In this document: piece after piece, positions 33,050 to 60,935 of the stretch
Numbering within the stretch: the first letter of the stretch is position 1
Layout: every line of letters begins with the position of its first letter
Origin: Plumapathes pennacea
Lineage: Eukaryota > Cnidaria > Anthozoa > Antipatharia > Myriopathidae
NCBI GenBank assembly: GCA_964036295.1
Contig: OZ038471.1
Span: 7,562,001-7,626,000, forward strand
Direction: 5' to 3'
Length of the DNA stretch: 64,000 nt
Notes under the pieces: generated by a model
The model's database searches: none
The model's input: only the letters and a program-made list of their open reading frames with translations
What the model was told of the DNA's origin: nothing
Position numbers and translations under genes: made by a program

Positions 33050-36000
33050 TCATTCAACACTGAAAGGAGTCACATCATCTCCTATCAGAACAAACGGCGC
33101 CCAGTACCCGATTTTGTTGAACTTGTCACTGTCTCTCATGGCCTTCATGGCTCTGCTGAGTGCTACACATGCGCTTTTTCCACCAACAAGCTGCCCGTAG
33201 AACTTTTCCATGAAGAACAAAGTGGCCTCATCATCAATTGCCCAAAGCGTCACGAGAACTGCACGAGCTCCGGCTCCGAGAAATGCACGAGCAATACCAA
33301 CTACTCCTTCAGCTCTGACGTCACCAAGGCCGCTGTGACAACAGCTGAGAACAACCAGCTGGGCCGTCAGTCGTTTCTGTTCCAGATCGGAGAGTGTCAG
33401 CATGACGTCTTCCTTGGAAATTGACTTCTTTTTTATGTCAGGGCTCGGAGCAAGAAGGATCTCTCCTCTGTCAGCATCTCCGTGAGCTGCAACATGAATC
33501 AAATTGGCATCGTTGAGTTTTTGCAGGACGACCTCTTTGGTAGCCTTTTCTCCCGTCAACGGTTGAACATTCAGCATCTTAGCGATCATGTGGGCTTCTC
33601 TATTTGCGTACGGTAGTCTGCTTGGCACATCAGTAACACCTTTTAACTTGCACACTCCAGGATCTCCCACTATCAAAGGACACGCTTGGCTCTGGGGTTC
33701 GTGTGGGTACTCACTGATCATCTTTGCTATTGCTAGAGACGGCACCAGTCTAACCTGCAAGTTGTCTGCTACGAAGCATCCCTTTTCATCAACAAGACAG
33801 GAAAATGGAAGCAAAGAGAGGGAGCCATCAGGCACGACCACTACTTGTGATTTTTCCACAAACTGGAGTGCGGGCCCCAAAACAATTCTATACAGTTCCT
33901 GAAGACGGTCAATGGCGTTCGATTCTCCAGGCTCGCTCTGCTTCTTTGCGGCATCGTTCTCTCCCGAAATCTGTGATGACTTGTTGGTTGCTCCGTTTTG
34001 TTCAGTTGGGGGAAGGGAATGGTCATCCTCCGGGGAATCCGGTAGGGAAACAGACAAATCTGCTGTTATCTTAACCTGAGTCTTTTCAGGCTTCTTCCTT
34101 CCCGAAATCTGCGTTATTTCGATTGATGCTGCACTTTGATTGGTGGAGAATTGGGCATGCTCATCCTCCGGTAACTGTAGTGGTGAAATAGACAAATCTG
34201 CTAGCAACTTGGCTGATTGCATGACTGGATTCGTCTGGCTCGATGAGCGTTTAGACATTTCTTCTGGGTACAGAAATGACAGTGAACGGTTTTCGCACTG
34301 ACGCCTGCAACTTGATCTTATTAGCACACCTGTATTGTTAATCAGTGAGTCCAAGCCCTTGAGGTTAGATACGAAATTCTTCGTAAAATAATGCGTCGTA
34401 GATTGTAGTGAAACTTCACTGACACGATGTTTCCTGAACGTTACATCTCCATTCGACTTGATGATCCAAAGGCAAATATCAGAACCGAGCAACGCATAGT
34501 AAAGAACTGTACTGCAAAGCGCCTGGACTATTGTGAGCAGCGCGGGAAAATCCAAAACGTCGGCTTTGGGAATTTCAGTACATCGAGGGTTATGATGAGC
34601 AAGCAGACGATCAGCCAACGCTCTTGAGCGTTTGTTCTCAGCAGTTAAAAGCGCCTCATTCGTCTTGCCTTGAAAAATAAGGACTTCAATAAAAGCACTC
34701 AGGGTGCTAATGAAGGTTTCAAGAATGGATATTTTTGATTCATCCACCTTTGGTGCTTTATGAAACAATTCCTCGTGCACTGAAACACTGTTGCCTAGAC
34801 ATATTTCTGCCTTGTCGTACTGCCCCATTTCCGAATAACAGACACCAAGGTTGCCATTAGCAGTTCCTTCGCCTGCCTTATCTCCAATCTGTGTCGCGAT
34901 GTTCAGTCTTGTTTGATGATGCTGTATAGCCTTGTCGTACTGCCCCATCTCCCAATAACAGACACCAAGGTTGCCATTAGCAACTCCTTCACCTGCCTTG
35001 TCTCCAATCTGTGTCGCGATGTTCAGTCTTGTTTGATGATGCTGTATAGCCTTGTCGTACTGCCCCATCTTCTCATAACAGACACCAAGGTTGCCATTAG
35101 CAACTCCTTCGCCTGCCTTGTCTCTAATCTGTGTCGCGATCCTCAGTGTTCTTTGATGATGCTGTATAGCCTTGTCGTACTGCCCCATCTCCCAATAACA
35201 GACACCAAGGTTGCCATTAGCAACTCCTTCGCCTGCCTTGTCTCCAATCTGTGTCGCGATATTCAGTCTTGTTTGATGATGCTGTATAGCCTTGTCGTAC
35301 TGCCCCATATTCGAATAACAGACACCAAGGTTGCCATTAGCAACTCCTTCGCCTGCCTTGTTTCCAACCTGTGTCGCGATGTTCAGTGCTGTTTGATGAT
35401 GCTGTATAGCCTTGTCGTACTGCCCCATCTTCTCATAACAGACACCAAGGTTGTCATTAGCAACTCCTTCGCCTGCCTTGTCTCTAATCTGTGTCGCGAT
35501 GTTCAGTGTTGTTTGATGATGCTGTATAGCCTTGTCGTACTGCCCCATCTTCCAAAAACAGACACCAAGGTTGCCATTAGCAACTCCTTCGCCTTCCTTG
35601 TCTCCAATCTGTGTCGCGATGTTCAGTGTTGCTTGATGATGCTGTATAGCCTTGTCGTACTGCCCCATCCTCCAATAACAGACACCAAGGTTGCCATTAG
35701 CAACTCCTTCGCCTGCCTTGTCTCCAATCTGTGTCGCGATGTTCAGTGTTGTTTGATGATGCTGTATAGCCTTGTCGTACCGCCCCATCTTCTCAAAACA
35801 GACACCAAGGTTGCCATTAGCAACTCCTTCGCCTGCCTTGTCTTTAATCTGTGTCGCGATGTTCAGTCTTGTTTGATGATGCTGTATAGCCTTGTCGTAC
35901 TGCCCCATCTTCCAATAACAGACACCAAGGTTGCCATTAGCAACTCCTTCGCCTGCCTTGTTTCCAATCTGTGTCGCGATGTTCAGTGCTGTTTGATGAT

Positions 36001-36508
36001 GCTGTATAGCCTTGTCATACTGCCCCATCTTCTCATAACAGACACCAAGGTTGTCATTAGCAACTCCTTCGCCTGCCTTGTCTCTAATCTGTGTCGCGAT
36101 GTTCAGTCTTGTTTGATGATGCTGTATAGCCTTGTTGTACTGCCCCATCTTCCAATAACAGACACCAAGGTTGCCATTAGCAACTCCTTCGTCTGCCTTG
36201 TCTCCAATCTGTGTCGCGATGTTCAGTGCTGTTTGATGATGCTGTATAGCCTTGTCGTACTGCCCCATCTTCTCATAACAGACACCAAGGTTGTCATTAG
36301 CAACTCCTTCGCCTGCCTTGTCTCTAATCTGTGTCGCGATGTTCAGTCTTGTTTGATGATGCTGTATAGCCTTGTCGTACTGCCCCATCTTCCAATAACA
36401 GACACCAAGGTTTCCATTAGCAACTCCTTCGCCTGCCTTGTCTCCAATCTGTGTCGCGATGTTCAGTGCTGTTTGATGATGCTGTATAGCCTTGTCGTAC
36501 TGCCACAT
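33050..36508 (-). CDS. TPR-CHAT protein (TPR array plus caspase-like CHAT peptidase)
   Basis: An uninterrupted 1152-codon reading frame in one exon. Residues 1-560 are fourteen 40-residue tetratricopeptide units of the form GQYDKAIQHHQTRLNIATQI and AGEGVANGNLGVCYWKM. A fifteenth, diverged unit follows (GQYDKAEICLGNS). A helical linker and a Ser/Pro/Asp-rich segment with an internal duplication (ADLSISPLQLPEDEH and ADLSVSLPDSPEDDH) precede the CHAT domain, about residues 860-1150. Both catalytic motifs are present: IHVAAHGDADRGE (His about 1009) and VVLSCCHSGLGD (Cys about 1057), so the protease may be active. CHAT is a caspase-clan (C80/C50-like) fold. In bacteria TPR-CHAT enzymes cleave partner proteins in immunity; in cnidarians the role is unknown. 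The start is the first ATG after an in-frame TAA at 36548-36550. That stop lies inside a further TPR unit preceded by an acceptor at 36635, so the ancestral protein was longer. Adjacent units differ by a few bases only, implying homogenisation. Confidence 0.9.
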   Translation of the reverse strand: MWQYDKAIQHHQTALNIATQIGDKAGEGVANGNLGVCYWKMGQYDKAIQHHQTRLNIATQIRDKAGEGVANDNLGVCYEKMGQYDKAIQHHQTALNIATQIGDKADEGVANGNLGVCYWKMGQYNKAIQHHQTRLNIATQIRDKAGEGVANDNLGVCYEKMGQYDKAIQHHQTALNIATQIGNKAGEGVANGNLGVCYWKMGQYDKAIQHHQTRLNIATQIKDKAGEGVANGNLGVCFEKMGRYDKAIQHHQTTLNIATQIGDKAGEGVANGNLGVCYWRMGQYDKAIQHHQATLNIATQIGDKEGEGVANGNLGVCFWKMGQYDKAIQHHQTTLNIATQIRDKAGEGVANDNLGVCYEKMGQYDKAIQHHQTALNIATQVGNKAGEGVANGNLGVCYSNMGQYDKAIQHHQTRLNIATQIGDKAGEGVANGNLGVCYWEMGQYDKAIQHHQRTLRIATQIRDKAGEGVANGNLGVCYEKMGQYDKAIQHHQTRLNIATQIGDKAGEGVANGNLGVCYWEMGQYDKAIQHHQTRLNIATQIGDKAGEGTANGNLGVCYSEMGQYDKAEICLGNSVSVHEELFHKAPKVDESKISILETFISTLSAFIEVLIFQGKTNEALLTAENKRSRALADRLLAHHNPRCTEIPKADVLDFPALLTIVQALCSTVLYYALLGSDICLWIIKSNGDVTFRKHRVSEVSLQSTTHYFTKNFVSNLKGLDSLINNTGVLIRSSCRRQCENRSLSFLYPEEMSKRSSSQTNPVMQSAKLLADLSISPLQLPEDEHAQFSTNQSAASIEITQISGRKKPEKTQVKITADLSVSLPDSPEDDHSLPPTEQNGATNKSSQISGENDAAKKQSEPGESNAIDRLQELYRIVLGPALQFVEKSQVVVVPDGSLSLLPFSCLVDEKGCFVADNLQVRLVPSLAIAKMISEYPHEPQSQACPLIVGDPGVCKLKGVTDVPSRLPYANREAHMIAKMLNVQPLTGEKATKEVVLQKLNDANLIHVAAHGDADRGEILLAPSPDIKKKSISKEDVMLTLSDLEQKRLTAQLVVLSCCHSGLGDVRAEGVVGIARAFLGAGARAVLVTLWAIDDEATLFFMEKFYGQLVGGKSACVALSRAMKAMRDSDKFNKIGYWAPFVLIGDDVTPFSVE

Positions 36509-36625
36509 CTTCGAATAACAGACACCAAGGTTGCCATTAGCAACTCCTTAGCCTGCCTTGTCTCCAATCTGTGTCACAATGTTCAGTCTTGTTTGATGAT
36601 GCTGTATAGCCTTGTTGTACTGCCT
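34810..36625 (-). repeat. 120 bp tandem repeat encoding TPR units
   Basis: About fifteen near-identical 120 bp units run head to tail. Several differ only at the W/E position (CYWKM versus CYEKM) and at GNK/GDK/RDK. In the first five units the W and E types alternate, so the real recent unit was a 240 bp dimer. Because 120 is a multiple of three, antisense frames also stay open (a 588-codon + strand shadow). Confidence 0.92.
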
Positions 36626-41940: not shown

Positions 41941-44900
41941 CTAAGGCTTTTTGGCCACCTCAGGACCGCGCCTCTTCTTTGGAGCCCTCCTCTTGGCCGT
42001 TGCGATGCGGAGCTCGTGAGCGAAGGCTTGGGCAGGAGTCTCTTGACGAGAAGCATCACCAGGTGACGTCACGGTAATCTCCTCGACGTCATCAGCAACG
42101 TCGATCGTGTGGCATTTTAGGGTTTGCAGCTCAATCCTTTCGTGGCGTTTTCCTGGTGGAGCAGCTGCAATGTTAATGGCGAAGGACTGTTTGGTCGTGG
42201 CACTAGTTCCTGCGTCTTCTGCAGCGGTATCTTCGGCACTTTTCATCGCGACTTTGTCGTCATGTGCGGTAGTCAAGTTCTTCCAGGGGACTGAAGTGTG
42301 GATCTCGATTTCCACAATGTGCTCTCTTGGCAACCCCGCCTCGTTGTCGGAGTCGCTGCTGGCTTCACTGGGGATGTCCTCTAATGATAAATCTTGAGGT
42401 CGCTCGAGATTCTCGTTCCCTGCAACTTTCTTCCTGTTCTCGACCTCGTTTCGTTTGTGCATGATCACCTGCTGCAGCCTCCTTACTCGTGTCAAGTTCT
42501 CAGTTACCTTTTTGAAATGAAAGTAAAATTGCAATCATTTCAGTTAGACAAGAACTCGAACGGTGCCGCGCGGCACAACTCGCTTACGTACAATCAAGTT
42601 GGGTGTGTAAATTTCTTGACAGCTTGACCAAATCAACTACCCTATTCCCAGACCAAAAAGACAAAATCTATACCCTACTTCAGACAAACATTTTGAAAAC
42701 GATACCTTTTGACGTAGCACATACCTATATGGCTTATATAAACGAGTACCCCCACCCACGGGAATCCACATTGCTTGCTTTTAATTCTGATATGTCCCCT
42801 TTAATTGCTTGTTTGATTACTTAATATATACTTAGTGGTGAAAGTACTAAATTATAACACTGTGTACATTAACAATCATGATTACTAACCTCGTCCCACC
42901 TCCAGGTGTTAAAGAAAAACACAAGGAATCCCTGAATGAACAAAAATAAATTAAAAACAAAAGACACTTTAACCATTTCACTATCAAGCTCAAAATGCAG
43001 ACTCTCCTAACTTTTTAAGAAACCATGTATGAGCGATGTAGTGAGATTTGATAGTTTTCATCTAAGCAAGCTATCGAAAACCAGGTTCCCCATATTGTGT
43101 GATATGATCTCTAGTGAGAAACTGAAGAAGGAAATTAAAGTTGATCACTCTTGGGAGTGAAAGGGTCAATCCGAAATATCCAGAACTTCTTCATTATTGT
43201 ATATTCCGTGCCCGGCAGTCTTTGTAAAATTTGTGTAACTTGAACCTGAATGAGTTGTAAGTAGTATTGTTGAGTTCACAACACTGGTAACTTTAGTTAC
43301 CTGCGCAGAATTGAGGATCACAAAGATGTATTTGGGTGCCACGTGGTCCAAGGGCAGAGTCACAAAACCGATGATCCAGGTCAGACCCAACAGGGGAAAC
43401 AAGATCAAGCAGGTGCGGGCGGTTTTCCTAAAAATCATCCAACAACAAAAAATGATGCACTTAAACTAAATTACTGTAATTAATTAATTAATTAATTAAT
43501 TAGGGCACTCATTATATCAGTGTGAACATTACCAGCTGAAACTGACTCGATAGAATAAACAGCTTGTCCGATTAAATGAAGCTACTGTTCTACAATTTTC
43601 CGACAATACTGCTTTTGATGCATGGGAGACCTCTCCCACTAGCATGCATAGACGGCGTTTCCGTTCGTTTTCAGGCCAAGTTCGATTAGAGAGTAAAGAC
43701 TGGGGCCTGTACAAAAGCTTCGCCCAAGGGGCCCCATCTTACTTTCGGATTTGGATCAAATTTGGTCTGACTGCCAGCTATGCAGCCAGGCTACTCTGCC
43801 ACTTACTTGAAGTTATCAAGGAATGGGGAGATGCTGTTGCTTCGCTTTCGCTGGATAACAACTCGCAGAGCTTGGCCAAAAATGAAGCAGTTTATCTGCA
43901 GATAAAACAACACCAAATACAAGAAATCAATACATATTTTTTGGGAAAAAATGATTAAAAGGAGAAATACTACAATGCGATACATTTACCAGGGTGACGA
44001 GAGAAATGAATGCAATGAAGGTCCAGTAAGCTTCGCCTCCAGGTCGCACCCAGCAGCTTTTTGGAGATAAACACATTAACGTTTAGTTAGAGATAATACA
44101 TGGCAGGAACTCGTTTAAAGTCTAATGCAATGAAAAATAGGAACACATCTTGGAAACTGACCCAATTGGCGAAACGTGATTAACTGACCGAGTAAGCCAA
44201 GTGGGTTAAGAAAGTCCTGCAGGGTCTAAACAAAATTCAAACAATAGCCATGCTTATCGGACAACGGCTAAACGTCGTCTTTATAAACCGACTCCAATCC
44301 ATGTTCTAAATTTGCAATTTAAGTTTGGCTAAGCCTGTTTTACGGCGTTCGCCTAAACTTCAATTTAGCGATAAACTAGGTCTAAGTTAGACTTGTTTAA
44401 AAAACCGACCCAGTGTGTTTATGAAGTAGCTTGACCTGAATTCAGAAGTCAGAAATTACAGCAAAAGAGCAAATGTAGATCAGTGACTCAACTTACATTT
44501 TGTCGCTCACATATTCGTCGATCCCACCATCCGAATACGCAGCGATGATGACTGGTACAGCGGTCAGGCAAAGAGGCACAACTTGGAGGTCAGGAACAAA
44601 GCATTATAACGGAAAAGGTTCAGGAACACGAGACAAGATCTATTGCTTACCTGATTTTGCCTTTGAGACTCGTCTCTCATCTAAGATTGTTTGTTGATTG
44701 TTCATCATCCAAGTTGATTTCTTTGCGTGACAAGCACGTAAAGGTGGTGTTACACTGGTCGATTTGCAACGATACGATGTTGTGCTAAAAATCGTTCAGG
44801 TGTAACATCCTATTGCGAACAATTTTTCGTGATGTTTGCAGTGCTGCAACGCGTTGATTAAAAAACTTGCAACACCGTTGCGTGAATTTGGAGCAAATCG

Positions 44901-45986
44901 GCGTTGCAAATCAACCAGTGTAACACGAGCTTTAAACTGATTTATCATGGGTTATGAAAATGTAATTTTGAGCTGGTTTTCAGTTTCAGTTTCTTTCTTT
45001 CTTTTTTTTTCTTTTCTTTTTTTTTTTTTACTGACACAGATACACAAAGCTGATAAATTTGAACGTGAGCCACAATGAGAAAGAGGAGAGAAAAGGAAAG
45101 ACACAACTTACGCCAACCAAAAGCGTGGTAAAGCAGCATTTTCTGTCTTTTTTTGAAAACGCTCGTAACACGTCGATACAGCTGAACTCCTTCAAGGAAC
45201 ATCCAGGCAAAGGTAGCTACCAAGAAATACTTAGTAACCACAGCAAATGAGATGCAGGCCGGCTGAAAGAAAATGACAGGGAAATTAAGATAGAGATAGA
45301 CTACAAAGCCGAGTTGCTATAATATAGACAAAAGTAAAGTAAAAATAAAAGTAAATAAATAAAAATTAAAATAAAAAAAAATTAAATAACAAGACGTAAC
45401 TGATCTTTTTACAATAATACTTACTATAAATTACAATATCATAGCCAACACAGGTATAGATAAAAAACAAGATGCAGAAAAGAGAGTACAGCAAAAACTT
45501 TCACAAGTATGAACATAAAATTAGAAGCTGTTGATTAGTATCAAGTCACAAACCAAACAAAAAATAAGTGTAGTAATACATATACGTTATAAAGTAATAC
45601 CTGGCTGTACCAAAATTTCTTTGAATAGTTTACATTAGTTTCTGGATCGCATCAAATCGATGCATGAATCTCACCCGGTAACGTTTAGCGTTGATTCCAA
45701 TCATGAAGAAAGTCTGACTAAAGTATAGACTCACTACCAGACCCAGCCTTATTTGCGCCTTCTCTTTTCTGAAATTACTGAAAGGAAACAAACATACATT
45801 ATATATCAAAGATCAATGTATATTGTCAAAAAGTCCTCTTTCGTTGCCTGATTCTGCATGAAAGGTGGGCCTCGCGGATTTGGTATAAAAAAATAACAGG
45901 AACATTTTCAGACCTGCTGATCAGTCACTGCCGTGAAGTCGGATTCTGGCCCCACACACCATTTCGCATGAATGTCACCTGTCACA

Positions 45987-46017
<31 letters not shown>

Positions 46018-49000
46018 CAAGAAATTGTTTTGTCCGAATGTTGGCCGTCAACTTCAGCGATCTTTCATCGTCAAAAAGAGCCCGTTTTCCCAGTAGCAAT
46101 TTAGGCTAGGTCACCCAAACTGGTTGAAAAATGATCTCATATGACCAAACATACATTTTAGTTTGTAACTAGTAAAAACGAAGAGGCCTCCAATTTGCAA
46201 CTCTTGTTCTCAAAACTAAATCAATCTTTCATTAGGCAGGCAGTAATTCGAGCCTTGGACACAAAACAGTCCGCCATTGACAGCAATTCAAAGAAGCTCT
46301 ATTTGAGCAGCACATTATAAAGTTCGTGAATTGTGTATGCTCATCAGCAAAATTAGGGGGATCAATTTGTACGTCATTTTCACCACGAGTTATTCGTCTT
46401 GAGTCAGAAACAAAACTGTTCGTTAAGTTTTGAAAAGAGGTCTAGATCGAGAATATGAATAATGTCGGTAGTTGCTATTTTGCCAGTTACTACCAATGTA
46501 ACGACTCACAGGAAATGACCAATGCCGCCGATTGACAAGACGTTCCCAAGCGAGGAGATTCCGAGGCCTCCGTACGTTAACGCCGTCAATACGCGCTCAT
46601 GGATTTCAGATGAAGACTGACAAAAAGTAAAACCAAACCCTTGACTACTCAAAATTCACGTTTGCTATGATAGAAGGTTTAGTTAACCCAAGCAGCGCTA
46701 TATATTAGTTGCAGTTCCACTAAACAGCATCTTAACCCTTTCACTCCAAAGCTCAAAATACGGATTCTCCCAACCTCTCAAAGGGAAAATGTATGAGTGA
46801 TGTGGCGAGAGTCGATAGTTCAATCAGCTGTTATCTGAGCAAGGAATCAAAAACCATTTTCTCTATACTGCATGGTATAATTCTGGTGAAAGACTGAGAA
46901 GAGAAAATGGAAGTTGATCACTCTTGGGAGTGAAAGGGTTCAAGGGGCCCTCTCAGCCAATTCAGTGTTTTTGTTTACATCTGGAATATCCAAGGCTGAA
47001 CTTGGTTCCCAAAAAAGGAAGTAATCATTCAAGAGAAAAATGGTTAGTAGCACTTTCAGATCAAAAGAAACTAATATTATTCCGAAACAAGTCGGATGGA
47101 AATGAATTGCTAATCATTGATCCGGCATTTTGGCAAATAGGGCCCCTTTTACCGGCTATTCTGTCCATTCCAAATAAACCGCTATGCCACCTATTCTGCT
47201 ATCTAGAGCAGAATGGATGGAGTAGTATTTCATTCATTCCGGAATCAGAATAGATCCAAAAGATCACGATTATCGTCTATTCCGGAATAGGAATAGACGG
47301 AATAGTCAAAAAATAACGCGCCCTAAAGTTCACCTTTAGTAGTGTGAACGTTTGACGCAAGTGAGCTAAAACTAACACACTGGATAGAACATTTTGAGCG
47401 TTTTACCGTATTCTCAGGTTCCTCTTCTAGTTGCATTAACACCGCGAAATGAGTCATGTGATCACATGAACACTCTGCGTGTCGTCCGGTCCTGGGCGAT
47501 AAGGAACATCCGTCGTCTACCCAGTCTCCTCCAGTGGATCCCCTGTTAACAAAAGCAAATTAAAGCGTTACAACACAAATAATGTGGGGTTAGTTTGTTC
47601 TGCATTACCAAGATTATCACAAGCTCTTTTTTTCTTCTGTTCTTCCCGCACACAAAAATGAAAATGAAGCTAACAATAAGCCACTTTCACAACCATGCAC
47701 AGTTGTAGCCTGTCAAGATACTGAAATCGACGCAAAAAAGAATGGCGCGCGAAAGACTGGGGCGAAGGCGGGAGAAGGTGAAGTTAGTTTGTTCTGTATT
47801 ACTAAGGACACGGCATGCTGTCATCTTGTTTTATTGTCACAGTAATTCTTTTTGCACAGCAATAAGTATCATGAGAGCCTGTAATAAGCAGCGCTATTCG
47901 CGAAGCGCACTTTTCTGGCGGGCCACCTGATGGCAGGCAGAGTAAAGAACTGCTTGATTGGTTAAAATGCAATTATGTAGAAACAAACCTAAGTTCAACA
48001 GAGAGATTTATTTGACAGACACTCATTTATGTGGGAGTAAAAAGTACTATTTGCTACTACGCATTATTGTAAAAGTAGCTTATTCAAGTTGGCACTGAAC
48101 CACCTTCGAAAGAAGTCTACTTTGCTTTTGCGCTATTTTCACAATAGTTCATATTATGCGCAATTTTGATCGATATCACATCAATGTACTAGTAACGCAT
48201 AGCGGCCCTTTGTCATACTATACACCATTCAAATTCCTTACCCTCTACGGGGCCTCCAGTACACACAGGTCAGATCCTTTAATTTCTTGTCCTGATGACA
48301 ATGATATAGACGATAAGACAATTTGACATAAGATGGCATGCTTTCATCCTGTTTTACTTCGGAAACACATCTGCAGATTTCTGTTTTATTTAGTTTTAAC
48401 TGAGTACATTTTAGTTGAGTTCTAAGTAAGAGATTGGTAAAGCCATGTAATAAGATGCAGAGAACAGAAAATCAAAAATGATGCTTGTCAGCAATACAAG
48501 GATGATAAAAATAAAAAGACAAAAATAATGACATGATCAACAAAGCAAGTACTAACCGGAAGATCCGTAAACTCTATCGCCACCTTCTTCTGGAGTTTGA
48601 TACTGTCGTCTACTGCCACCGCGATGATATTTGAGCCAAGGCTAAAATAATGTAACATTTTTAATAAATACAGTAGAACCACGCTATCTCGAGCTCTCAA
48701 GGAAAGCGAGAATTAGTTCGAGATAGTGGGTGATCGAGATAGCGGAGTTCTACCAAGAGAAATTTCTACCTAGTTCATTTCAGAGGGAAATCGAATTCTG
48801 TTCGAGATAGCGGGGAGTTCGAGATAACCGAGGTCGAGATAGCGGGGTCCTAATGCAAACGCAAGAAATGAGAATGAGAAATGATTTCCATGACACAAAA
48901 CTTAGATCTATTCGAAAAGAAGGAAATAGATGAGCGTGTCTTATGAAATAACCTCACTGTTTGATGATATCACGGACAGTTCTGAGTAAATGCATAGGCT

Positions 49001-52000
49001 GCAGGTGTATACAGATAATCACTCTGTTCAGTCGCTCTTTAGTGGATGTGAAAAACTTCATCAATCAAAATCGTAGCTATAAAAAGACAGAAAGTGTCAC
49101 CTCAGGCAGGCTCACACGAGTAAAGCAAGCGAAAGCGACCAGTTCACACGGTAAATTTTGCAAAGCCTTTAAGCCTGGCAAAACGGTGACACGTTTCGTG
49201 CAACATCGCGCAACATTGCCGTGTCTTTTTACAGCATATGTTGCGCTGTAGGCTCCGTTTATACTAGAGAGAATTTATCCGGATGCGTGAAAGCGTTTAC
49301 ACTAGTTTTTGTGAATCCGGGAAGAAAACGAATCCGGAATCGACAGTGGGAACTTTGTGTCCGAAATAGTTGTAAAGTGCAAACAGGGCCTTTGATTGAG
49401 TTTGTTAACAGATTGAGAATGTGTTTTTCTTCAATGTATATGATATTAAAGTCAACTCTCTCTAAGGCGGACACCTTCGAGATTCAGACTTAGTGTCCGC
49501 CTTAGAGAAAGTTCAAATACAGACAAACAAGTGAAAATCGGCAAGGGCCAAATCTGCATGCTGTCCGCCTTAGAGAGGTGTCCGCTTAGAAAGAGTTTAC
49601 TGTACTACAGAAAATACGAATCTTAAATATACAATTGAGTTACCACATAAATTTCTGAACACTCGTGAAGCCAGCGAAATAGAGTAATACTCACCTGTGT
49701 GAATTGTCCAATCCTTGACGAAACAGTCCGTTCACGTTTTTGTAAACAATGCTGACTACATTAACACCTGAAGATCCGTGGAAAAGGCGTGCTTAGTCGG
49801 TAAAGTTGGAGGGCATAGGAACCTTAAAATTAAGTTCTCTTGCGGCTTTGTTAACATATTAAGTAAACCTTGAACAAAGATTGATAAAAGGGTACAGTAT
49901 GCATATAATTATATTAAAAATGAACTAACTTTGATTTCCAAAGACACCGGGTGGCAGTTTCATGACAGCCCGCACGTTGTCTGTGTTATTCAACTTGGGT
50001 ACAGTGACTGGGCTGTTGTGATTCGGAGAGATGTTCTCGATCTGCAAGACTAATGAGTGAAGAATATTAAATTAACCCGCCGATGACCAACAAGAAAACA
50101 AAATCTCTCGCACGTCACCCCGGAAGTGTGCCCCGGGTAATAGATGAACCTCGGGGTGAGGAGGGGATGCTCATCGTACCTTTTAGGAGTCAAAAACATG
50201 AGTTCTGGTACCACTTAAAATGCTCAAGATCAAACGCTGACATTTTTTTGTGACGGAGTACCGTTTGGGGACCGGATATTTTTACTCCAGCAGACTGTTA
50301 TCAGTGTACTCAAACCAGGTCCATTTAATACTACTAGGAGTCAAAACGAAAATTCCCGAAGAGCAACCCCAGCCTTTTTTATGTTTTATTATATCATTAT
50401 TAATTTGAAAACTTACCTAATCTCTTCGAGCGAATTGTCATGATCTTGGCCGATTCATTCAGGTGATTCGCAGCGTATTCGAGGGCAAAATCTTCTACTT
50501 GTGAAGATGCGGACAGAGTAGATGCTCCATCTTGTTCTGCAGTCTCTGTGACCAGGTTATCTGTGACACCCATCACAAGCTGGGGGGGGGGGGGGGGGGG
50601 GAGGGGGGAGGGATAATACGTATTAGAGGGCTATTGATAACAGCCACAGCAACGATTTAACCCGAAGGACGTCAAATGTGATCTTTTCACAAAAGCAAAC
50701 ATTTTTCACCATATCGAAATTACTAAGTATTACGGGTTTCAGCACAATTGGTCTACAGAAACGAAATGGCGAGTTTAAAAACAGAAAAATAAGAGACTTT
50801 AGTATGAGGTGAGGGAGGCTCCGTCCTTCATTCCATATACTAAAATCTCCTGTCTCAAAGATTTTAAAAGCTCGCCATTCGATTTCTGATTGGTCAATCG
50901 TACTGAAACCTGGAATACGTATTGATTTGGATGTCCGGTTTCTTGTGACAGGATTATTTTTCAATCTAATTTATTTTGCACAACTCCGACATGGCTAATA
51001 AGCACGTTCTAAACAACAATTTTAATATCAAAAGATATTACCTTTAGGGAGGACTTGTTCTTGGGATCTGCAGTCTTCAATATCTCCTTGAATCTTGTGT
51101 GAACAAACTCCTTTGATTCAACGGTTGAATGAGTTGACTGCACGCTTGTCGGGTAAACCTGTTTGATGCTGGAAGCGACGAACGATGTAGGAAAGCTTTG
51201 AGCAGCTTCGGACTTCACAAGTAGTGGAGTTATAGACTCCAGGGGAGCAGTGGCTGTGTGGTGAACAAACTCCTTTAGTTTAGCGGCTGAATGAGCTGAC
51301 CGCACGCTTGTCGGCCCATAAGTCACGTGACTTGTGATTGTCGGTTGTGAAACAGAACTCGCACCCGGTCCAGCTTTGCTTGTCTTCGTTACGAGGGATT
51401 TTAAATTCTCCGCTGTTGAGGAATTCAGACCAGAAGACGATAACAAACGGCTCATGGTCTGGTTTGAAGACATTTTCAAGGTCGAGGTGTTGTTGAGCCC
51501 TCTGGATGAAGAAATATCTGACGAGAGAGAATGGGAAGACGTTGAATATGCGACATAAAGTTCTGTACAGATGTAATAGTCTTAAATATTAATTTTACAA
51601 TATAAGGTCACGAGGTAGATAAATAAGACAATTGGCTGCGTTCCATTACACTTCAGCCAGCGAAGTTTTAGCTTGTAACTTCCTGTGGTGTATATTCTAT
51701 TTTTTACAAATCTAGTGTGTTTCAATTAATGCTTTTTTTCCGAATTGTCCCCCCCCCCCCCCTCTTTTTTTTTTGTTCAAATTGGGAAAGAAGGGTAGCT
51801 ATGATTCCTCTTTTTATAGCGAAGGTCCTTGTATAATTGTACTCTATCATTATGCTTTAATAATGTTGCTCTCTCTCTTGTTCAACCATCGTGAAGATCG
51901 GCCTCGTACAAAGGGAAAAGTCACATGACTAAGTGTACACAAAACAACATAACGAGAAAAAGCAACATAATAAAAATAACTACAAATCACAACGTACATT

Positions 52001-55000
52001 TTCAAACAAACAATGCCCTTACTTGTTGGGAACGATGTTATTGTCTGCTCATGAACATATTTTCTTCCAAAAGAGTCAACTCCAGTAAACTGTCTCCGTA
52101 GCGCCTGCTGTACACCAGGGCAGCGTCCATCAGAGGCAAAGGTGTCGCTGTAAGTGAAACGCACGTGGACATCACAGAGATTGTACCGTACACTTGGGAG
52201 GCCGGTGCTGTTGGCTGAGATGGAATCTCGGCAGGTCTGATTTACGTCGTCAGGAAATTTCAATGAGGGTCGGCAAGTTTCAGAACTATTTCGGCCTTCA
52301 TACCAACTTCCTGGGAAACCAAATGATTCCAAGTGTGCGTGTCCACTGACAAGAGTAAGAAACCGAGCGTATTTTGATTGATGACTGATTTTGTAATTTG
52401 TCTTATTGGCAATCATGAATGTTCGAGAGAAGTCCGTTCCTCGTATTTCCTCCCATGTAAGGCCGTGCAGCTGATCGTCAACAAGAAGTCCTGACGTGTC
52501 TGAGGTGTTCATTACGATGCCGATAAACGTAGTACATTTCCTGCCAATTAGTTTCAGCGGTGTCGCTAAAACAGCAGCTGACGTATATTTACTTACTGGA
52601 GGAAGAACTGTCATAAATGGAACTGTAGCCCAGGAATCGGCATCTTGACCTTTGTTGTACTTGACAACAAGGCAGGGCTTGTCACACAGTATTTCACGAG
52701 AATCGTTCGAAGGAATGTCATATTCGGCAAAGTCTCCCTGATCAAGTGAAGAGCGACTGCCACCAACACTTATCGCGGTTTCATTAAAAGCGGCCAAAAC
52801 ACGGAATACGTCTCCCGCTCTTCGCATTGCTGTGGGACTTGTAACATGATGACTCCCCCAGTGATTCACAGGAGGGATCTGCTCCACCAAATGTTCACAA
52901 ACATTAGCTTGAACTTTGGCGCACTGGTTTCCAGAAAATACAGCCACTTTCTTGCTGGATTCTACTTTGGTTCCAGTCAAGTCAGCGCTGCTCCCAATTT
53001 GGAACACTTCCAACTGATTTAGTTGCTCGGTAATAGTCTCGAAGTTTCCGTATTGTTTTCCTTTGTACGTCACTGCTCCTGATGTTCTCAGGGTTACAGT
53101 TACATCAGTGTTGTCTTCTGAGGCAACGATACCAACTAACGAGTATCGATGAGTAGGTATGTAGGATGGCACCACATATTCCGTCCCAACCATGTGCAAA
53201 GGAAGCCCGAGAAACCCGTCACTTATAGAACTTACCATGTTTACTCCGTAAACTGCGATGTCATGATCAGACGTGATGCGGACACCTTTCCTCTCCATAC
53301 CTGTCACAGTGGTCATGCGCACTGTTCCATTGAGTTCTATGGTTGTCATATTGTCGATGGTCACGTGATAGGTCTGATTCATGGAAAGAAAGGGAACCTC
53401 TACACGAACAACAGTGTCGTGGCGGCTTGTGATGTACAAGTTGTTGCTTCCGCTCATTTCCTCTTCATATTGCGTAATAAATCCAACCACAAACTCTCTT
53501 CCAATGTTTCCACTGACCTCTGACGTATAGGAAATGAAGAAAGTAAATGCAAAGGGGATATTACACCGGAAGGAATGCAATACGGCGGAGTATTTTTACG
53601 AGTCGGTTCTATTTTTTCGAGCCTGCTTCAGGCGAGAAAAAATAAAACTGACGAGTAAAAATACAGCCTACTGCACGACTTTTCATATAATATAAAATTG
53701 TTTATTATACGACAAGCAAAGGAGGGCCAAACGTTTAGCCGTGTACAAAATGGATTAAACGTTTGTCACAAAAAATGACTACGCGTTCGTAAACTTTGCT
53801 TGCGAAAATTGATCGCGTAAGCTAATAATATAAATACAAAAATACTCAATTCTGATTGGCTGAGAACAGGGGTATTATATTTAAGGTGGCTCAATAGGGT
53901 ATTTCCCAGCACTTGCTCGTATTTAGTTTATGACACCAAAACCGTCATATTTTCATTTCATTATATTCTTTCTTGATCAAATTTGCAGGGTAGATGTTTC
54001 GAAAGGTCTGTTGCGTATACGTCTTACTTTTGTCACTCTAGTGTGGTTTCTATGGAAACAATACTTCCTTGAAATAAAGGTCTTCTACCCCGTTTTCAAA
54101 CTTTCTGCTCTATTTTCTCGAGTTTTCTTCGGTGAATTTTTCTGAAACTTTCAGTATGTTTAAAAATATGTATAAGGTAAACGTAACTGTGAAAAAAAGT
54201 TGGGGTTAGAGGAGCGGATTCCGAGCTAATTGGCAATTTATGTTTTTTGCAAATAAAAAAAATTCTGCTCCATAAATTTCCATTAAAATCAAATATTACA
54301 AAACCGGATATAATCTTCGTTTGATTGCAAAATTTAAGACAGATTCACCGAAGGAAACTCGAGAAAAATGCAAAGAAAAACTTGATATTTTACGTGCGTA
54401 TTGCGCCATCAAATGCAAAATAATGACTCGACAAGATCGACAAGTGCGCATGCGTTAGCCGTAATGTTGCATGTAAACACGAGGAGAAAGCGGCGATCGC
54501 ACGCCTGCAAGTACAGCAAGTTTTCTTGGTGCGAAGCTAAAAGGAAACACCATGCAATTCCTGAATTTCTGTCTTGAGAAGCTCGTACTGGATATGTCAG
54601 CCACGAATTATGCTGTGCGAACTACTGTTAGCGAAGTCTCGAACAATTTGAGGGCGATAGCTGTTCAACAACTCAATCCTTTTCAATACAAAGCCGTGAA
54701 GACAGTTCGAAAGTCGTCAGTTCAAGCCGTCGAATGCTAGTCCACTAGCTCCCAACAAGTTTGTTGGCAGTTGTGTCCCATCAAGTTCATTCATACTTAT
54801 TCAGTACAGTTCGTGAATATTTAGTTTTGCGACTGCTCACCTGAGATAATATGCCACAGACTGACACGGGATCGAACTCTGCAGGTTAGTAGGATTTGCA
54901 AAGCTTCCGTAACAACGCCAATAATTTCTGTCTAAGTTTGCTTACTTCCAAGAATTGCTGCCAGTGTTGTGACTAGGCCGAATGTACTGGTTTGTCCATT

Positions 55001-58000
55001 GCAACTGATGATTGCCGAAATGACCGAGCCGCGTTTGTGACGGCCGGTTCATTTCAAAGTCAAACAGAATAAAATCTGAATTGTAGAACTTCTTCATCGT
55101 TGTGTTGCTTGTTTAGTTATTGGCCTAACAGGATGTACAGAAACAATACTTTCAAACTAATTCAGTAGAATTATATACATTCGAAGGTAAAGTGATAAAG
55201 ATCGGCGATCAGACAAGTAAAGCCGGCGTGTACTTAGTTTGATTGAAAGGCTTTCAAGTTTGGTTTCTTCGTGACTCCAAGAACCGTGCACGCATCGTAA
55301 ACTGTTTTTACTCCGAGATTTTAGGATTTCCTGTTAAATTCAGATTTCCTCCAGAGAATTACGAAAGTCGGGTTTTTATTTCATTGTGATTTTGGTGCCC
55401 ACGCGTGCATCTGAAAACCCTATGGAGCCACCTTAAACTAGTGTGCAAGTGTGCAAGAAAGGTTAATCAGATGTGCAAATGTAATTAATCAGAGTTAATT
55501 GCACAGATTAATTGATTTTGCACACTTCGTTGCCATGACAATCACGCAAGCTCAACTTTTGCATCGAGAAAAAATGGTGGCCAAGAGCGAGAGATTCCCA
55601 AAACATAAACAAAGCAGCCATAAAAGTTAAAAACTGGGAAACTCAAACGCACGAAATCGACTCCAAAACATGGACGAAAATGCCTGTAAGGAATTCGCGG
55701 AGGAGCCGGCGAAATGAAATAAAAAGAAAGTGGAAATCTACGAGCCCGAAGTAAAGTTATGTTCGGAGATCAGCAATGTGCCAAGCCATCCGCAGCAGGA
55801 ATAGTCTGAAACTTCAAGAGATCATCGACAGGTCGTGATCAGTAAACTTCTTAAGTTGATTTCAGTTTCGATCCAGTTTCTTCTGCTGAAAAGCTTGTTT
55901 GTAAAAGTTTAGCCGCTCAATGTTCGCGAGTGTGTCGATCGGCTCTGCAGAACTTTATGACTGAAGCTTGAAGCCTTCACGATACGATTGCAATTTTTTC
56001 GCTGAACAGCAGCTTCAACGGTTTCTTAATCTTCGCTAAGTAAATATAACTATATAGACTTGCCGTAACTCAGGTTTCTCTTCCTTTCGGAGATTGTCGG
56101 CAGCCAGTTATGCCGTTTCAGCGGGTCTGCTGTTCGGTGACTTTCATCCATAACGTGTTCCATAACAGAGCTCAGGGTTAACTCAGTCTTTCATTCAAGG
56201 CTATTCAAGACAGTGATCCTCGTTGACTTGAGTTTTGCATTACGCAAATTTCTACAGCGTGAATTTTCAGCGTCCAATAAAAAGTCGCGCGTTTAACAGT
56301 TTTGCTTTGGAATGGCTTCCTTCATCTTGTTTATTTTTGCATCTACATTATTAACTAGTAATCATTGGTGTGCTCATTCAATTAACGATTAATTGTGCTC
56401 GTAATGTTTGAAAATTCCACAAGTAACACTCGTCCTGCGGACTCGTGTTATTTTGTTAGAATTTTCAAACATTACTCGCACTATTAATCGTTAATTGAAT
56501 GAGCACACCAATGATTACCACTACTAATAGAACAGTTGATCTGGTTCCTGACGAGTGCAATACGCTCCCATATTTGCACTTGTTTTGGCCTTTATTCAGT
56601 CATTCTTATAGGACGCGGAAAAAAATGAGAAATTATGCGGCATTTTAGGTCAATTATGCGATTTTTTTCCGAGCTAAATATATTATTTTTGACCAGGTCT
56701 CAGAGGAGAAAAACCATTTTTATGCTGTTTAACAGACAGTTAGAACATAAAGGAACATTAGAATGTGATGTATCTCAATCTAGAATGGCCATTTGAGCTT
56801 TACAGTATATAGAAAAAATAAACAAAACAAAAAAAAACAATAACAGTTGTATTCCAGTGCTAATGCTGTGTGGGGGTACATGTAAGTCTTTGGTAGAGCT
56901 ACTCATAATTAATTTAAAGGTGCCTATCTCAAGTTGCCAGGATTATTGACTGCATGATGGGGCTCAAAGGCTCAGCGCACTCCAAAATGGATCAATGTTC
57001 ATATAATCACTTCAAATCAACACTGCTCCCCAATTACAATCAATGTATATTTTTTATTGTCCTATTTTCATGGTATGATTGTTACCAGTTACCCATAATG
57101 TAAACGGATACACTGGCCAATGGTGAGAATCTATTTTATTAAGATGACTCACCTGGCTCAGGCAGAGCCCTAAAAATATCACTAATCGGCAGTAAGCCTT
57201 CGAGGTGCTTGTCCACCACGCACTTTCGAAAGTGATCAACAACATTGCATGAAGAGCAAAACAGCAAGCCACTGTCCGCATGGAAGGTTCCTTCAGGATA
57301 TTTCCTTGCTCTGTCGTCAGCGGTGGTTTTCACTGGAAGGTGCGATCGTCTCAGCTTCTCTGTAACGGCAGGCTTTTTGACTACAAACCTATCCATGGGG
57401 ACGTTTGTTTCGACGTTCAACGAAAGCAACTACATAATTATTGTAACTCGACGAGAGTGTAGCAAGGATCTAACGGTGTCTTTCATGAATATATATCAGC
57501 AACAGTGATTTGCCAGTTTACAGAAAAGGATTGTTTATTCTGAACCAATAGGCAATGTAGGAATCAAAACTAGTACCAGGCCCCAGACATGTAAATAACG
57601 CCATGTTGTTCGATTGACGACCATATTGAAGGTTGTAGAAGTTTCCTAAGGTTTCTCTACGGATTTTTGGCAGGTAAATCACCTTCAGACAAGGTTTAAG
57701 CTGCGGAAGCTTTAGTAAAAGAGAGGATTTATTGTGTACTTTGTTTGTATTGTGCAGCATTTTTTGAATTATACAATATTTCATGAATTATGCAATCGGA
57801 TGCGATTTGAGGCCGATTATGCGAAATCGCACCATCGCGTAATATCAGAAACCCTGTTTATTTCCACTCGAACATGTGAAGTCGTGTAATAAAAGTGAAC
57901 TATCTCTAAGACGGACACACTCGGGACCTAGTCTAGACAGACAAAACAGTGAAATTAGGCCGGCAGGAACCAACAACCCTTGTCCGCGTTATGGAGGTGC

Positions 58001-58167
58001 CATCTTATACTGATGCCCGTATTGACTGTATATAAAGTTAGTGCTAACCTTGCTTGACCATCATACCTTCCTCCCAGCTATAAACAAGCTAACACCTTAC
58101 CTGGAGAAGTCATCAATGTAATCCACACCAGCACCAGCAGAAATCGGAAAGTCTTGCAAACTGACAT
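41941..58167 (-). CDS. Adhesion GPCR with IgGFc-binding ectodomain
   Basis: Eighteen - strand exons join in one frame (1334 residues): 58167-58101, 53519-52023, 51517-51042, 50579-50417, 50049-49930, 49767-49695, 48641-48557, 48291-48242, 47542-47407, 46616-46510, 45777-45675, 45262-45112, 44581-44497, 44056-43990, 43895-43807, 43427-43301, 42931-42890, 42507-41941. Exon 1 is a signal peptide (MSVCKTFRFLLVLVWITLM). Exon 2 is an IgGFc-binding N-terminal domain (GREFVVGF, CEHLVEQIPPVNHWG). Exon 3 is a Ser/Thr stalk with a duplicated KEFVH segment. Exons 4-9 form the GAIN domain with GPS: W..GC, CSCDHM|THFAVLM, cleavage expected after residue 873, leaving a THFAVLM tethered agonist. Exons 10-17 hold seven helices (YFLVATFAWMFLEGVQLY in TM3, CWVRPGGEAYW in EC2, LLGLTWIIG in TM6). 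The 188-residue tail ends in basic clusters (KRRAPKKRR). It should be a self-cleaving surface receptor. An acceptor just before the ATG implies a 5' UTR exon upstream. Intron 1 is 4.6 kb. The ligand is unknown. Confidence 0.93.
42971..43168. mobile_element. CTTTCACTCCCAA-family MITE in receptor intron
   Basis: The element runs from TTAACCATTTCACTATCAAG to CACTCTTGGGAGTGAAAGGG between the TM6-7 and TM7 exons. It has full-length structure and no ORF. Confidence 0.8.
44746..44932. mobile_element. MITE, GTGTTACACTGGT ends
   Basis: GGTGTTACACTGGTCGATTT, GCAACG on the left is mirrored by GTTGCAAATCAACCAGTGTA, ACACG on the right. The 130 bp interior is rich in GCAAC words. It lies in the intron between the TM3 and TM4 exons. 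Confidence 0.8.
46732..46940. mobile_element. CTTTCACTCCCAA-family MITE in receptor intron
   Basis: AACCCTTTCACTCCAAAGCT through CACTCTTGGGAGTGAAAGGG, a full-length copy between the GPS exon and the TM1 exon. Confidence 0.85.
48666..48852. repeat. TTCGAGATAGCGGGG element in receptor intron
   Basis: Several copies of TTCGAGATAG and GATCGAGATAGCGGAGTTCT; it begins CAGTAGAACCACGCTATCTC and ends AGCGGGGTCC, so the ends are inverted (AGTAGAACC/GGTTCTACT type). Same family as 5085-5445. Confidence 0.75.
49445..49610. repeat. CTCTAAGGCGGACACC element in receptor intron
   Basis: CTCTCTCTAAGGCGGACACC opens the element, TGTCCGCCTTAGAGA recurs in reverse twice, and it ends near GAGTTTACTGTACTA. Related sequence lies at 57897-58010. 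Likely terminal or subterminal repeats of a DNA transposon. Confidence 0.65.
50582..50601. repeat. Poly(G)20, the polypyrimidine tract of a receptor acceptor
   Basis: On the - strand this is C20 immediately followed by AG (position 50580) and the GAIN exon at 50579. The tract that defines the splice acceptor is thus a pure C homopolymer. Confidence 0.85.
50672..50960. mobile_element. Fold-back element, relative of 8241-8588
   Basis: TACTAAGTATTACGGGTTTC and CACAATTGGTCTACAGAAAC on the left pair with GATTGGTCAATCGTACTGAA and CTGGAATACGTATTGATTTG on the right. The centre GAGACTTTAGTATGAGG matches the other copy. It lies in the intron between the stalk exon and the first GAIN exon. Confidence 0.75.
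56359..56519. mobile_element. ~160 bp near-perfect palindrome
   Basis: TAATCATTGGTGTGCTCATT, CAATTAACGATTAAT, GTAATGTTTGAAAATT on the left are mirrored by AATTTTCAAACATTAC, ATTAATCGTTAATTG and AATGAGCACACCAATGATTA on the right, with a loop around TCGTCCTGCGGACTCG. Arms of about 75 bp. Confidence 0.88.
57153..57396 (-). CDS. CGGBP1-like BED-type zinc-finger exon
   Basis: ATG 57396 opens MDRFVVKKPAVTEKLRRSHL, then GLLFCSSCNVVDHFRKCVV and DKHLEG, strongly like human CGGBP1 (MERFVV start; LFCTSCNVV; DHLKSKTH). After HLEG the similarity stops at LLPISDIFRALPEP and the exon ends in a donor (GTGAGT at 57152), so the second zinc-binding His of the usual H-x-K-x-H is absent unless supplied by the next exon. 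CGGBP1 derives from hAT transposase BED domains and binds DNA. This may be a nested gene in receptor intron 1 (same strand), an exonised transposon fragment, or a decayed copy. Confidence 0.65.
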
Positions 58168-58339: not shown

Positions 58340-60935
58340 CAGGAAGCGACGGATTAGCATAACATGTAGGCGCTCATGGGGGAGACAAAGCCTGTAACGG
58401 GCCATGTTAAAGTCTACCCGAAGGCTGTGCGGACTGCTACGGGCTGGCCGGGGTTTTCCTTACTGCCTTTTGGTTTAGAATTGCGTCCAGCACGTTAGCT
58501 CAAAGTAGAATCGTCACGTCTTGAATCGACCTCTGGTACATTAAGGCCGGTGAGGTGTGGCCACGACTCTATCATAGAGCGGATAACTCTCTTAGTTGGG
58601 GGGTTGGTTGGTTGACTGTCCAGGGCTGCTCAACAAGTATCCTTCGCGCATTCTTGTTCTTGGTAAATGACAACGGTATATTAAAATAAGACCTGCCTGG
58701 AAGGTTTGGCTTGATGGCTGCAGTTTATTGTACCGATGTTCATCACACTCGATCGCCCTTCCAGGCCAATCTTGTCAGCAAATTCTTCAAGGACAAGGGA
58801 TGCCTGACTATCAGAATCGAGGAGGGCGAAAGTGTCAATGCTGGAACCTCCGATTGTTTTCACAGTGATCGGTACAATCTGTAGTAGCACTGTTGCTTTT
58901 TCGTAGCCCAAGTGACGATGTTCCTACATGTACGAACACTTGCGCTGTTCCGTGGATTAGGTGGTGATAAGATTTGTTGCAGCTGCCTATACCGCATTAC
59001 CCTCGGCGTTCGCATTTCCGTGCAAAGTTTTCGCTATCGCTAAGGCAGCGAAAACACAGTTTGGTTTCTTTGGCTAGCAGGGCGCGCGGCCGTCAATGTC
59101 CAGCGCTTTAAATGTTTCGCAGTGCTCGATCTGATGTTCCTGGTTTCCTTATGTTGTGAGTTTTGCTATTCTTTCGTACGCCAGTTGCGAGAGTTGATAC
59201 GGCGGTCGACGGGTTGTTAGGCCTTCTCGTGGGGTGGCTTGTTCTTCTTCCGTCGCTGTCCGGTCTGAGGGGTGGTTTTGACGGCCCTGCCCGGTTTGCA
59301 GAGTGCTCGCTCACTGGCGCTTTGGTGCAAACTCTTACGCGCAGCCACAAGTCGAGATCTGATAATGATGGCACCTTTGAGCTCACTTAAATTTTCTTCT
59401 CTTCCCAACGACCCCCGAGTGTGTTCGTCAGCTTGTGGACGGCGCGCCTAACATTGTCGGTAGCATCCAAGTCGCTCTTGAACCCGAGGCTTTTGAGCTT
59501 CTCGACCGCAATGTGGAGGCTGTTGCATAGCGACTGCAATTGGCCAAAGTCTTCTTCTGGAACTTTGGGGTGATCGAATATTATTTTAGGTACGCCCTTG
59601 CCAATAATTCTTCGTTGTCAAATTGCTCTATCAACTCGAGAAGGGCAGTTCGGTACAAGTGGCCGTGGTTAAGCATTCCGCCGATTGCTTTCTTCGCCTC
59701 TCCAACAAGCGCACTCTGCAGGTGTGTCATTCGTTGAGTATTGGTCAACGGCTGATCGTGGACGAAGTACTTGAACATGAAGATGAAGTAGGGCCACTCG
59801 AGGGGATTGCCGGAGAAACGTGGAAGTTCCAGGCGAGGAAGGGACTTCATGAAGGCTGAGGGTCCACTGGCGTGCTTCAGTTGAACTTCTTTCTGTCAGG
59901 ACTATCGCAGAATTTATGGACCCAGGATTCGTTAAGCGCTTTGTGCGTAGTGGGGTCATCTTGGTCTTGTCCAGAAGATGGAAATATCTGGCGGGTTGTT
60001 GAAGAGTGCGCCGGGGGTGAAGAGTAGGTGCCTGCTGCGGAGCGCTGACAGCGCCTCGGCTTTACCCGTCGGTGGGAGCACTTCACGTGAAGGAGACACT
60101 TGCGGTTCCCTGTCGTCGTCAAAATCACGAAGGCGGTTGACCAAGTTGTTCACTGGATCTTGTTTTTCGTCGTCAAGCTCCAGTTCTAGACGAAGTCTTT
60201 CCACCTCATATTCCAGTTCTCGGGTTTGACGACGCTCTTCCATCCTCTGATTTTCACCCCTCAGTCTCATTTCGTTTGCATCTCGCTTTCGTTGTTCATC
60301 CCTCAGTCGCGTTTATTCAGCATCTCCCTTCCATTCCTCTTCGGCGCGCCGATTTGACTCTTTGCTGGCTTGAGCGATCTTTAGTTCGGCCAGACGTTCC
60401 CTTTTGATTAGATCGCTAGCCTTTGAGCACCATGTGAATTTCGATTTGGATCGCGCTTTCCTGGACGACGACGACGTTCGAGACGGGGTTCTGCTTTCTC
60501 TCTGACTGATCAAGCTTTCCTTCTCGCGCGTCTCTTCGGGATGTTCGTGATTTGCGTGACTCGGTTCGGTTGCGTGCTCGTGATCATGAATAGCACTGCT
60601 GTCTGAGGGCGTGTGTTCCTCACTTGCGTGCCTCGGTGCGGTTGCGTGCTCGTACTCGTGAATATAACAGAAAGTTTACTTTTTCGTTTTGGCTGCGTTT
60701 TCGTCCTGTCCGGAACAGGTACATCTGACCATGTATTCTGCGCGCATTGTGAGACATTTGACCAAACATTTTCGAAAACGTCAAATGCTCGGGGTTTTGC
60801 CTGGGGAGGGGATAATCGCAGTAGAATTGACTCATACATTATAATTGAATATCGAGTCCCAGTATTTACAGAGAGAGAGCTTCGCTCTCGGGCAACTGTT
60901 CGCTTCTCGGAACAGATAATATCCTCGGACAATTA
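58340..60935 (-). mobile_element. BEL/Pao LTR retrotransposon, decayed (gag to protease linker)
   Basis: Reading leftward: a tandem Thr/Gln/Arg-rich start (60932-60510), gag N-terminus (SKASDLIKRERLAELKIAQA, coiled-coil RQTRELEYEVERLRLELELD) with TAA at 60315, then LPRLELPRFSGNPLEWPYFI, HDQPLTNTQRMTHLQSALVG and GGMLNHGHLYRTALLELIEQ (DUF1759 gag core). A frameshift near 59580 leads to PEEDFGQLQSLCNSLHIAVE and AVHKLTNTLGGRWEEKK. Next come protease-like LLQIVPITV and FALLDSDSQASLVLEEFADK (58911-58681; the usual DSGSQ is DSDSQ) and the linker PVAVRTAFG near 58425. Reverse transcriptase, integrase and clear LTRs are absent. It lies about 170 bp upstream of the receptor start codon, in the same orientation. 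Confidence 0.85.

Follow-up and report, generated by a model that had tools for sequence, protein, structure and literature searches.

The locus analysed here raises the question of whether the exons for an IgGFc-binding head and those for an adhesion GPCR, which lie on the same strand in Plumapathes pennacea, form one gene, and how a receptor of this class may have come by such a head. The window, meaning the whole stretch of 64,000 nucleotides under analysis, corresponds to C10:7562001-7626000 of the 290-Mb genome. A GFP search bearing on the cnidarian origin gave no match, and no positive control gave one either. In our reading, to which we assign a probability of about 0.8, a single gene encodes an adhesion GPCR with an outermost IgGFc head, the head being a module, made up of a signal-peptide exon and a phase 1-1 exon, that also occurs in ZP-type genes; the receptor unit would have been duplicated in tandem, its heads then being kept, swapped for VWA or lost.

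A receptor model was rebuilt from the minus strand, with the exon edges picked by eye according to frame and splice consensus (Table 1). The model comprised 18 exons (58167-41941) in a single frame, with a coding length of 4050 nt including the stop codon, no internal stops and a protein of 1349 aa; all of the introns (17/17) displayed a GT donor and an AG acceptor, with fitting phases. An earlier note, made from the letters alone, had described eighteen exons closing in one frame, and the rebuilt model agrees with it, including both ends and the edges at 53519, 52023 and 50579. By eye, an additional in-phase acceptor was seen for exon 13, ten codons downstream; the upstream acceptor is the one kept in c7757, a paralogue described below. 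An AG with a pyrimidine tract was observed six bases 5' of the receptor's ATG, so that a 5' untranslated exon is likely. Two imperfect repeats were noticed by eye in the exon 3 stalk.

Table 1. Exons of the receptor model, in window positions.
Feature	Position	Strand	Remarks
Exon 1: start codon and signal peptide (aa 1-22)	58101..58167	(-)	ends in phase 1
Exon 2: IgGFc-binding head (aa 23-521)	52023..53519	(-)	phase 1-1 symmetric; Pfam PF17517, E 1e-60
Exon 3: Ser/Thr-rich stalk	51042..51562	(-)	34% Ser+Thr over 174 aa
Exons 4-8: GAIN and first half of GPS	48242..50579	(-)	matches to solved ADGRG6 and ADGRG3 GAIN chains
Exons 4-8, edges	50579-50417, 50049-49930, 49767-49695, 48641-48557, 48291-48242	(-)	
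Exon 9: second half of GPS, HM|T cleavage site, tethered agonist THFAVLM	47407..47542	(-)	Pfam GPS, E 2e-13
Exons 10-17: seven helices	42890..46616	(-)	Pfam 7tm_2, E 1.3e-38
Exons 10-17, edges	46616-46510, 45777-45675, 45262-45112, 44581-44497, 44056-43990, 43895-43807, 43427-43301, 42931-42890	(-)	
Exon 18: cytoplasmic tail (aa 1162-1349) and stop codon	41941..42507	(-)	

The order of domains in the protein was signal peptide, IgGFc_binding, Ser/Thr stalk, GAIN, GPS and 7tm_2, and the architecture that had been read from the sequence is borne out by Pfam matches together with solved GAIN and 7TM relatives. In the Pfam search of the spliced protein, PF17517 matched aa 123-401 in two stretches (E 1e-60; 206 bits against a curated cut-off of 25.6), giving exon 2 the IgGFc-binding match that the note had proposed to look for; PF01825 (GPS) matched aa 850-894 (E 2e-13), and PF00002 (7tm_2) matched aa 913-1151, covering positions 3-250 of the 250 in the profile (E 1.3e-38). 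The domain search suggested by the note thus recovered PF17517 and PF00002, but the Pfam GAIN model had no match in the spliced protein at E <= 1, and homology was established through solved chains, ADGRG6 (6v55, E 1.7e-11) and ADGRG3 (7qu8, E 1.1e-9), by which the protein has a GAIN domain N-terminal to the GPS. For the GPS and helices the best solved relative was ADGRL3 (8jmt, E 6e-40). The GPS retained four Cys, HM|T and FAVLM, and the cleavage region CSCDHM|THFAVLM was identical in all the copies having both GPS exons, 8 and 9 (6/6), in keeping with the earlier statement that the Cys pair, HM|T and THFAVLM are intact. The paired Cys and H-X-S/T site outlined for the GPS motif of adhesion GPCRs (PMC13062082) are both found in the window receptor, the site as DHM|T. 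The predicted fold of the IgGFc head was mostly beta, with residues 1-400 mostly well modelled, and the head may consist of sandwich-like units in a row, a shape fit for surface binding.

Eight related receptor units were found on C10, namely the window gene, c7757, c7641, c7541, c7470, c7440, c7373 and part of c7720. Two of them carried intact IgGFc heads (window and c7757), one a VWA domain beside an IgGFc remnant, and the rest were truncated, had no head in the stretch read, or were masked by N, as in c7720, where the expected head stretch reads N. Both c7470 and c7373 lacked the initial 107 codons of exon 2 and carried a frameshift near its end, and c7541 held fragments of exon 2 only; three of the five IgGFc exons in the cluster were truncated or fragmentary, two of those being frameshifted as well, so that some copies can dispense with the head. 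No match was detected to exons 4-6 in c7373, nor to exons 3-10 in c7541, which is thus without both GPS exons. In c7440 the signal peptide survives along with the intron edge and some 35 nt of IgGFc exon sequence (window 53825-53485, 91% identity); a VWA domain (E 2.6e-25) follows this remnant, and we read the unit as a head swap with a visible scar. The c7641 unit showed the GPCR chassis, but neither a head nor a signal-peptide exon in the 6 kb upstream; a class A GPCR frame sits in that same interval. Homologues of exon 1 were present in c7757, c7440 and all nine of the loci read on another contig, C8 (9/9), and homologues of the exon 18 tail in c7641, c7541, c7470, c7440 and c7373 (partial in three of them), the tail exons of c7541 and c7470 differing from that of the window by 26 nt, which is not a multiple of 3.

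A profile search in which all 20 candidates were scored gave 17 PF17517 matches in the genome (C10, n = 5; C8, n = 11; C5, n = 1). In all nine C8 loci read of the 11 matches, the signal-peptide and IgGFc exons with short intron edges showed about 80% DNA identity to the window, and the C8 heads were in open frame. The one C8 gene followed downstream (L031) displayed ZP-N (E 1.1e-12) and ZP-C (E 1.3e-21) frames about 1 kb away on the same strand, with a phase-1 acceptor compatible with exon 2. Symmetric (phase 1-1) exons can move between genes without breaking the frame. Given the homologous C8 exons and the ZP-compatible phase, the IgGFc head looks like a phase 1-1 exon module common to matrix-type proteins and the receptor chassis. 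The C5 copy had 34% identity and different surrounding sequence, with no more than a sub-threshold MopE-like match. One scan of genome contigs yielded 23 bacterial PF17517 loci, with 26-33% identity to the window head among the 21 aligned; four of the five bacterial proteins scanned carry other domains, e.g. PKD, a T9SS-type tail or MucBP, and one of the five joins PF17517 to MucBP_2 and Muc_B2. The label "mucin-type", given to the domain in the earlier note, therefore proved too narrow, since PF17517 is also bacterial and its nearest relatives in this genome lie on C8, where the one followed leads to ZP.

Over chassis exons 5-17, comparison of the window with the four of six copies having all of these exons gave dS of 0.042-0.064 and dN/dS of 0.24-0.38, and pairs among the other copies gave dN/dS of 0.06-0.58, highest with c7440; over TM2-TM7, dN/dS between the window and all six copies was 0.14-0.33, with no stops. 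The chassis is under purifying selection. For the head, constraint between the window and c7757 was weak (dS 0.108, dN/dS 0.68), dN/dS was about 0.60 for the window against the degenerate c7470 and c7373 and about 0.96 for c7757 against the same two, and comparison of the window with four C8 heads gave dS of 0.50-0.56 and dN/dS of 0.28-0.35. These values indicate that both halves have been constrained in the long term, the head more loosely among recent receptor copies. The dS of the head was 2.6 times that of the chassis in the same gene pair, a gap that gene conversion acting on the chassis might account for.

A tree built from 19 heads set the C8 group on one side of a branch (100/97) and the C10 heads only with 74/15; as C10 does not fall within C8, the tree favours neither family as the donor. 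Its rows took in 8 of the 21 aligned bacterial heads, as well as the heads of c7470 and c7373, both degenerate and read as far as the first stop. Of the seven C8 loci from the genome search, three were left out for being near-identical and two more were brought in. The tree carries a long-branch warning for C5 and the bacteria. Between the window and c7757 heads, 36 of the 55 changed positions lay in predicted loops (residues 1-403, two gaps; Fisher p 2e-5). Loops vary in most proteins and the enrichment was weak or absent against the C8 heads (p 0.03 and 0.11), for which reasons positive selection on the head loops is not claimed.

Whether the head and receptor exons could belong to separate mRNAs was a worry raised in the earlier note, and c7757 answers it as far as DNA can. 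This tandem paralogue, about 140 kb from the window gene (C10:7759142-7746517), showed the same order from signal peptide through IgGFc, stalk, GAIN and GPS to 7TM, with the same phases and in one frame of 1038 codons, with no stop, through TM7 (exons 1-17 read). Its head is shorter than that of the window by 2 codons and its stalk by 121 codons, in frame and with the same acceptor context. All the coding indels between the two genes were multiples of 3 (4/4), as against 11 of the 49 intron indels, counted in 13 of 16 introns, the other three having been set aside because of their length or a difference in length. The alternative is a pair of neighbouring genes duplicated as a unit, one for a secreted SP-IgGFc protein and the other for an adhesion GPCR with no head or a different one, as might be suggested by the C8 SP-IgGFc exons, which have no GPCR beside the one gene followed, and by c7641, a chassis with no head or signal-peptide exon in its 6 kb upstream. 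We consider this very unlikely, because the exon 2 frame runs free of stops to a conserved donor at which the phases join, c7757 stays in frame despite two large stalk indels, and in c7440 a homologous signal-peptide exon is followed on one strand by the VWA head, the same stalk end and GAIN, with an acceptor before the VWA frame whose phase fits that exon (checked at this first junction only). The in-frame order of c7757 and the contrast between coding and intron indels make the case for a single gene strong, though not final.

A single gene might still be a recent, silent or decaying duplicate, its architecture a by-product of tandem duplication, and the weakly constrained head (dN/dS 0.68) and the several degenerate units in the neighbourhood would suit such a history; it is nevertheless improbable, given 18 exons free of stops and frameshifts, the chassis dN/dS of 0.24-0.38 and the existence of a second intact copy, c7757. 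It could also be that the main product is a soluble head, formed by retention of intron 2 with a stop at 51850 or by shedding after GPS cleavage, the GPCR part being minor. The frame does stay open for about 57 codons beyond the exon 2 donor, and N-terminal fragments of adhesion GPCRs can be shed, but the purifying selection on the GPCR exons makes a mostly soluble product unlikely.

For the preferred reading, a membrane receptor with an IgGFc head, a mechanism can be proposed by analogy with adhesion GPCRs, in which GAIN self-cleavage and the tethered agonist are established. On its way through the secretory pathway the receptor would be cut at HM|T by its own GAIN domain, and the head-bearing fragment would stay non-covalently attached; binding of an extracellular partner by the head, or a pulling force on it, would then make THFAVLM accessible to the seven-helix domain, and the exposed agonist would trigger G-protein signalling. 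The ligand class may be surface mucus, matrix or a microbial coat, and since the module also occurs in a ZP gene, extracellular matrix or surface coat would be the most economical choice, with microbes second. The earlier proposal of a sensor of mucus, microbes or symbionts is a possible one; IgG binding by the head is not implied by the name of the domain. A bolder version, which we hold to be unlikely, is that the receptor and a ZP-type matrix family arose from one head module so as to let the receptor sense the coat that the animal itself secretes. IgGFc heads borne by ZP filaments would then bind the IgGFc or VWA heads of the tandem receptors, and the C10 cluster would be a head-swapping array that follows changes in the surface matrix or in microbes mimicking it.

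The receptor class and the IgGFc domain are both known, and the interest lies in their combination, the visible head swap and the sharing of the module. The window receptor resembles adhesion GPCRs (class B2; best solved relatives ADGRL3, ADGRD1 and ADGRG6) in its GAIN, GPS Cys pattern, H-X-T site, tethered agonist and 7tm_2 helices, whereas the heads of vertebrate adhesion GPCRs are lectin, olfactomedin, EGF, LRR, PTX or CUB domains, in place of which IgGFc_binding is found here. FCGBP is described as having an N-terminal IgG Fc-binding region of 450 aa (PMC9354016). The window head is comparable with that region, although FCGBP is a secreted gel component and the window protein a predicted membrane receptor; unlike FCGBP-like mucus proteins, it had no VWD, C8 or TIL domains, and, unlike the C8-contig gene L031, no ZP-N or ZP-C (Pfam, E <= 1). 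The SP-IgGFc genes on contig C8 share homologous signal-peptide and IgGFc exons, and the one followed leads to ZP rather than to GAIN-7TM or FCGBP-like VWD/TIL, whereas the bacterial IgGFc_binding proteins have PKD, T9SS-type tail or mucin-binding partners (4/5 scanned), with no receptor domains reported there. A search confined to published papers found no adhesion GPCR described with an IgGFc head. An earlier sighting is possible, as one figure legend of a sponge study groups IgGFc-binding, GPS and GAIN, the legend giving no model-by-model assignment (PMC8242945).

How adhesion GPCRs gain new extracellular domains, and what their ligands are, has been little studied. One array here shows the intact state, a scarred swap and losses, together with a relative of the module elsewhere in the genome. 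Head exchange and the matching of heads to ligands can therefore be tested directly, and the window gene and its neighbours offer a favourable case for studying how new sensing parts are acquired by receptors.

Synonymous divergence between the focal receptor gene and its tandem paralogue with an intact IgGFc head (c7757) was 0.108 in the head and 0.042 in the chassis (receptor exons 5-17), a 2.6-fold higher value for the head within the same gene pair. On contig C8, three pairs of IgGFc heads were found at 13248448-13371062, the two members of each lying about 83.2 kb from one another and being identical or one base different, which indicates that the segment either was duplicated very recently or is an artefact of the assembly. 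Among viral folds, the predicted head structure (model m1f488d02f9db) best matched FirrV-1-C4 from Feldmannia irregularis virus a, with an E of 6e-10, a TM of 0.47 and 10% identity. In a Propionibacteriaceae locus (L046), IgGFc_binding was joined to MucBP_2 and Muc_B2 domains in one protein.

The class A GPCRs lying near two of the related receptor units were near-identical to each other, and the L033 copy, the only one submitted to the domain scan, matched 7tm_1 with an E of 4e-45. The ~200-bp repeat of the focal gene recurred several times in the adjacent c7641 stretch (71-78% identity) and looks like a dispersed short element.

Features near or within the receptor units
Feature	Location	Strand	Context
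Class A GPCR, single frame	L033:1936-2940	-	upstream of unit c7641
Class A GPCR, single frame	L020:988-1983	-	upstream of unit c7470
~200-bp repeat	window 43169-42969 and 46943-46731		introns of focal receptor gene

One long open frame (window 33056-36547, minus strand) encodes tandem TPR repeats followed by a terminal CHAT domain. Frames resembling putative retroelement pieces were observed at window 58949-60000 (minus strand), and sequence related to them also lies upstream of unit c7720.
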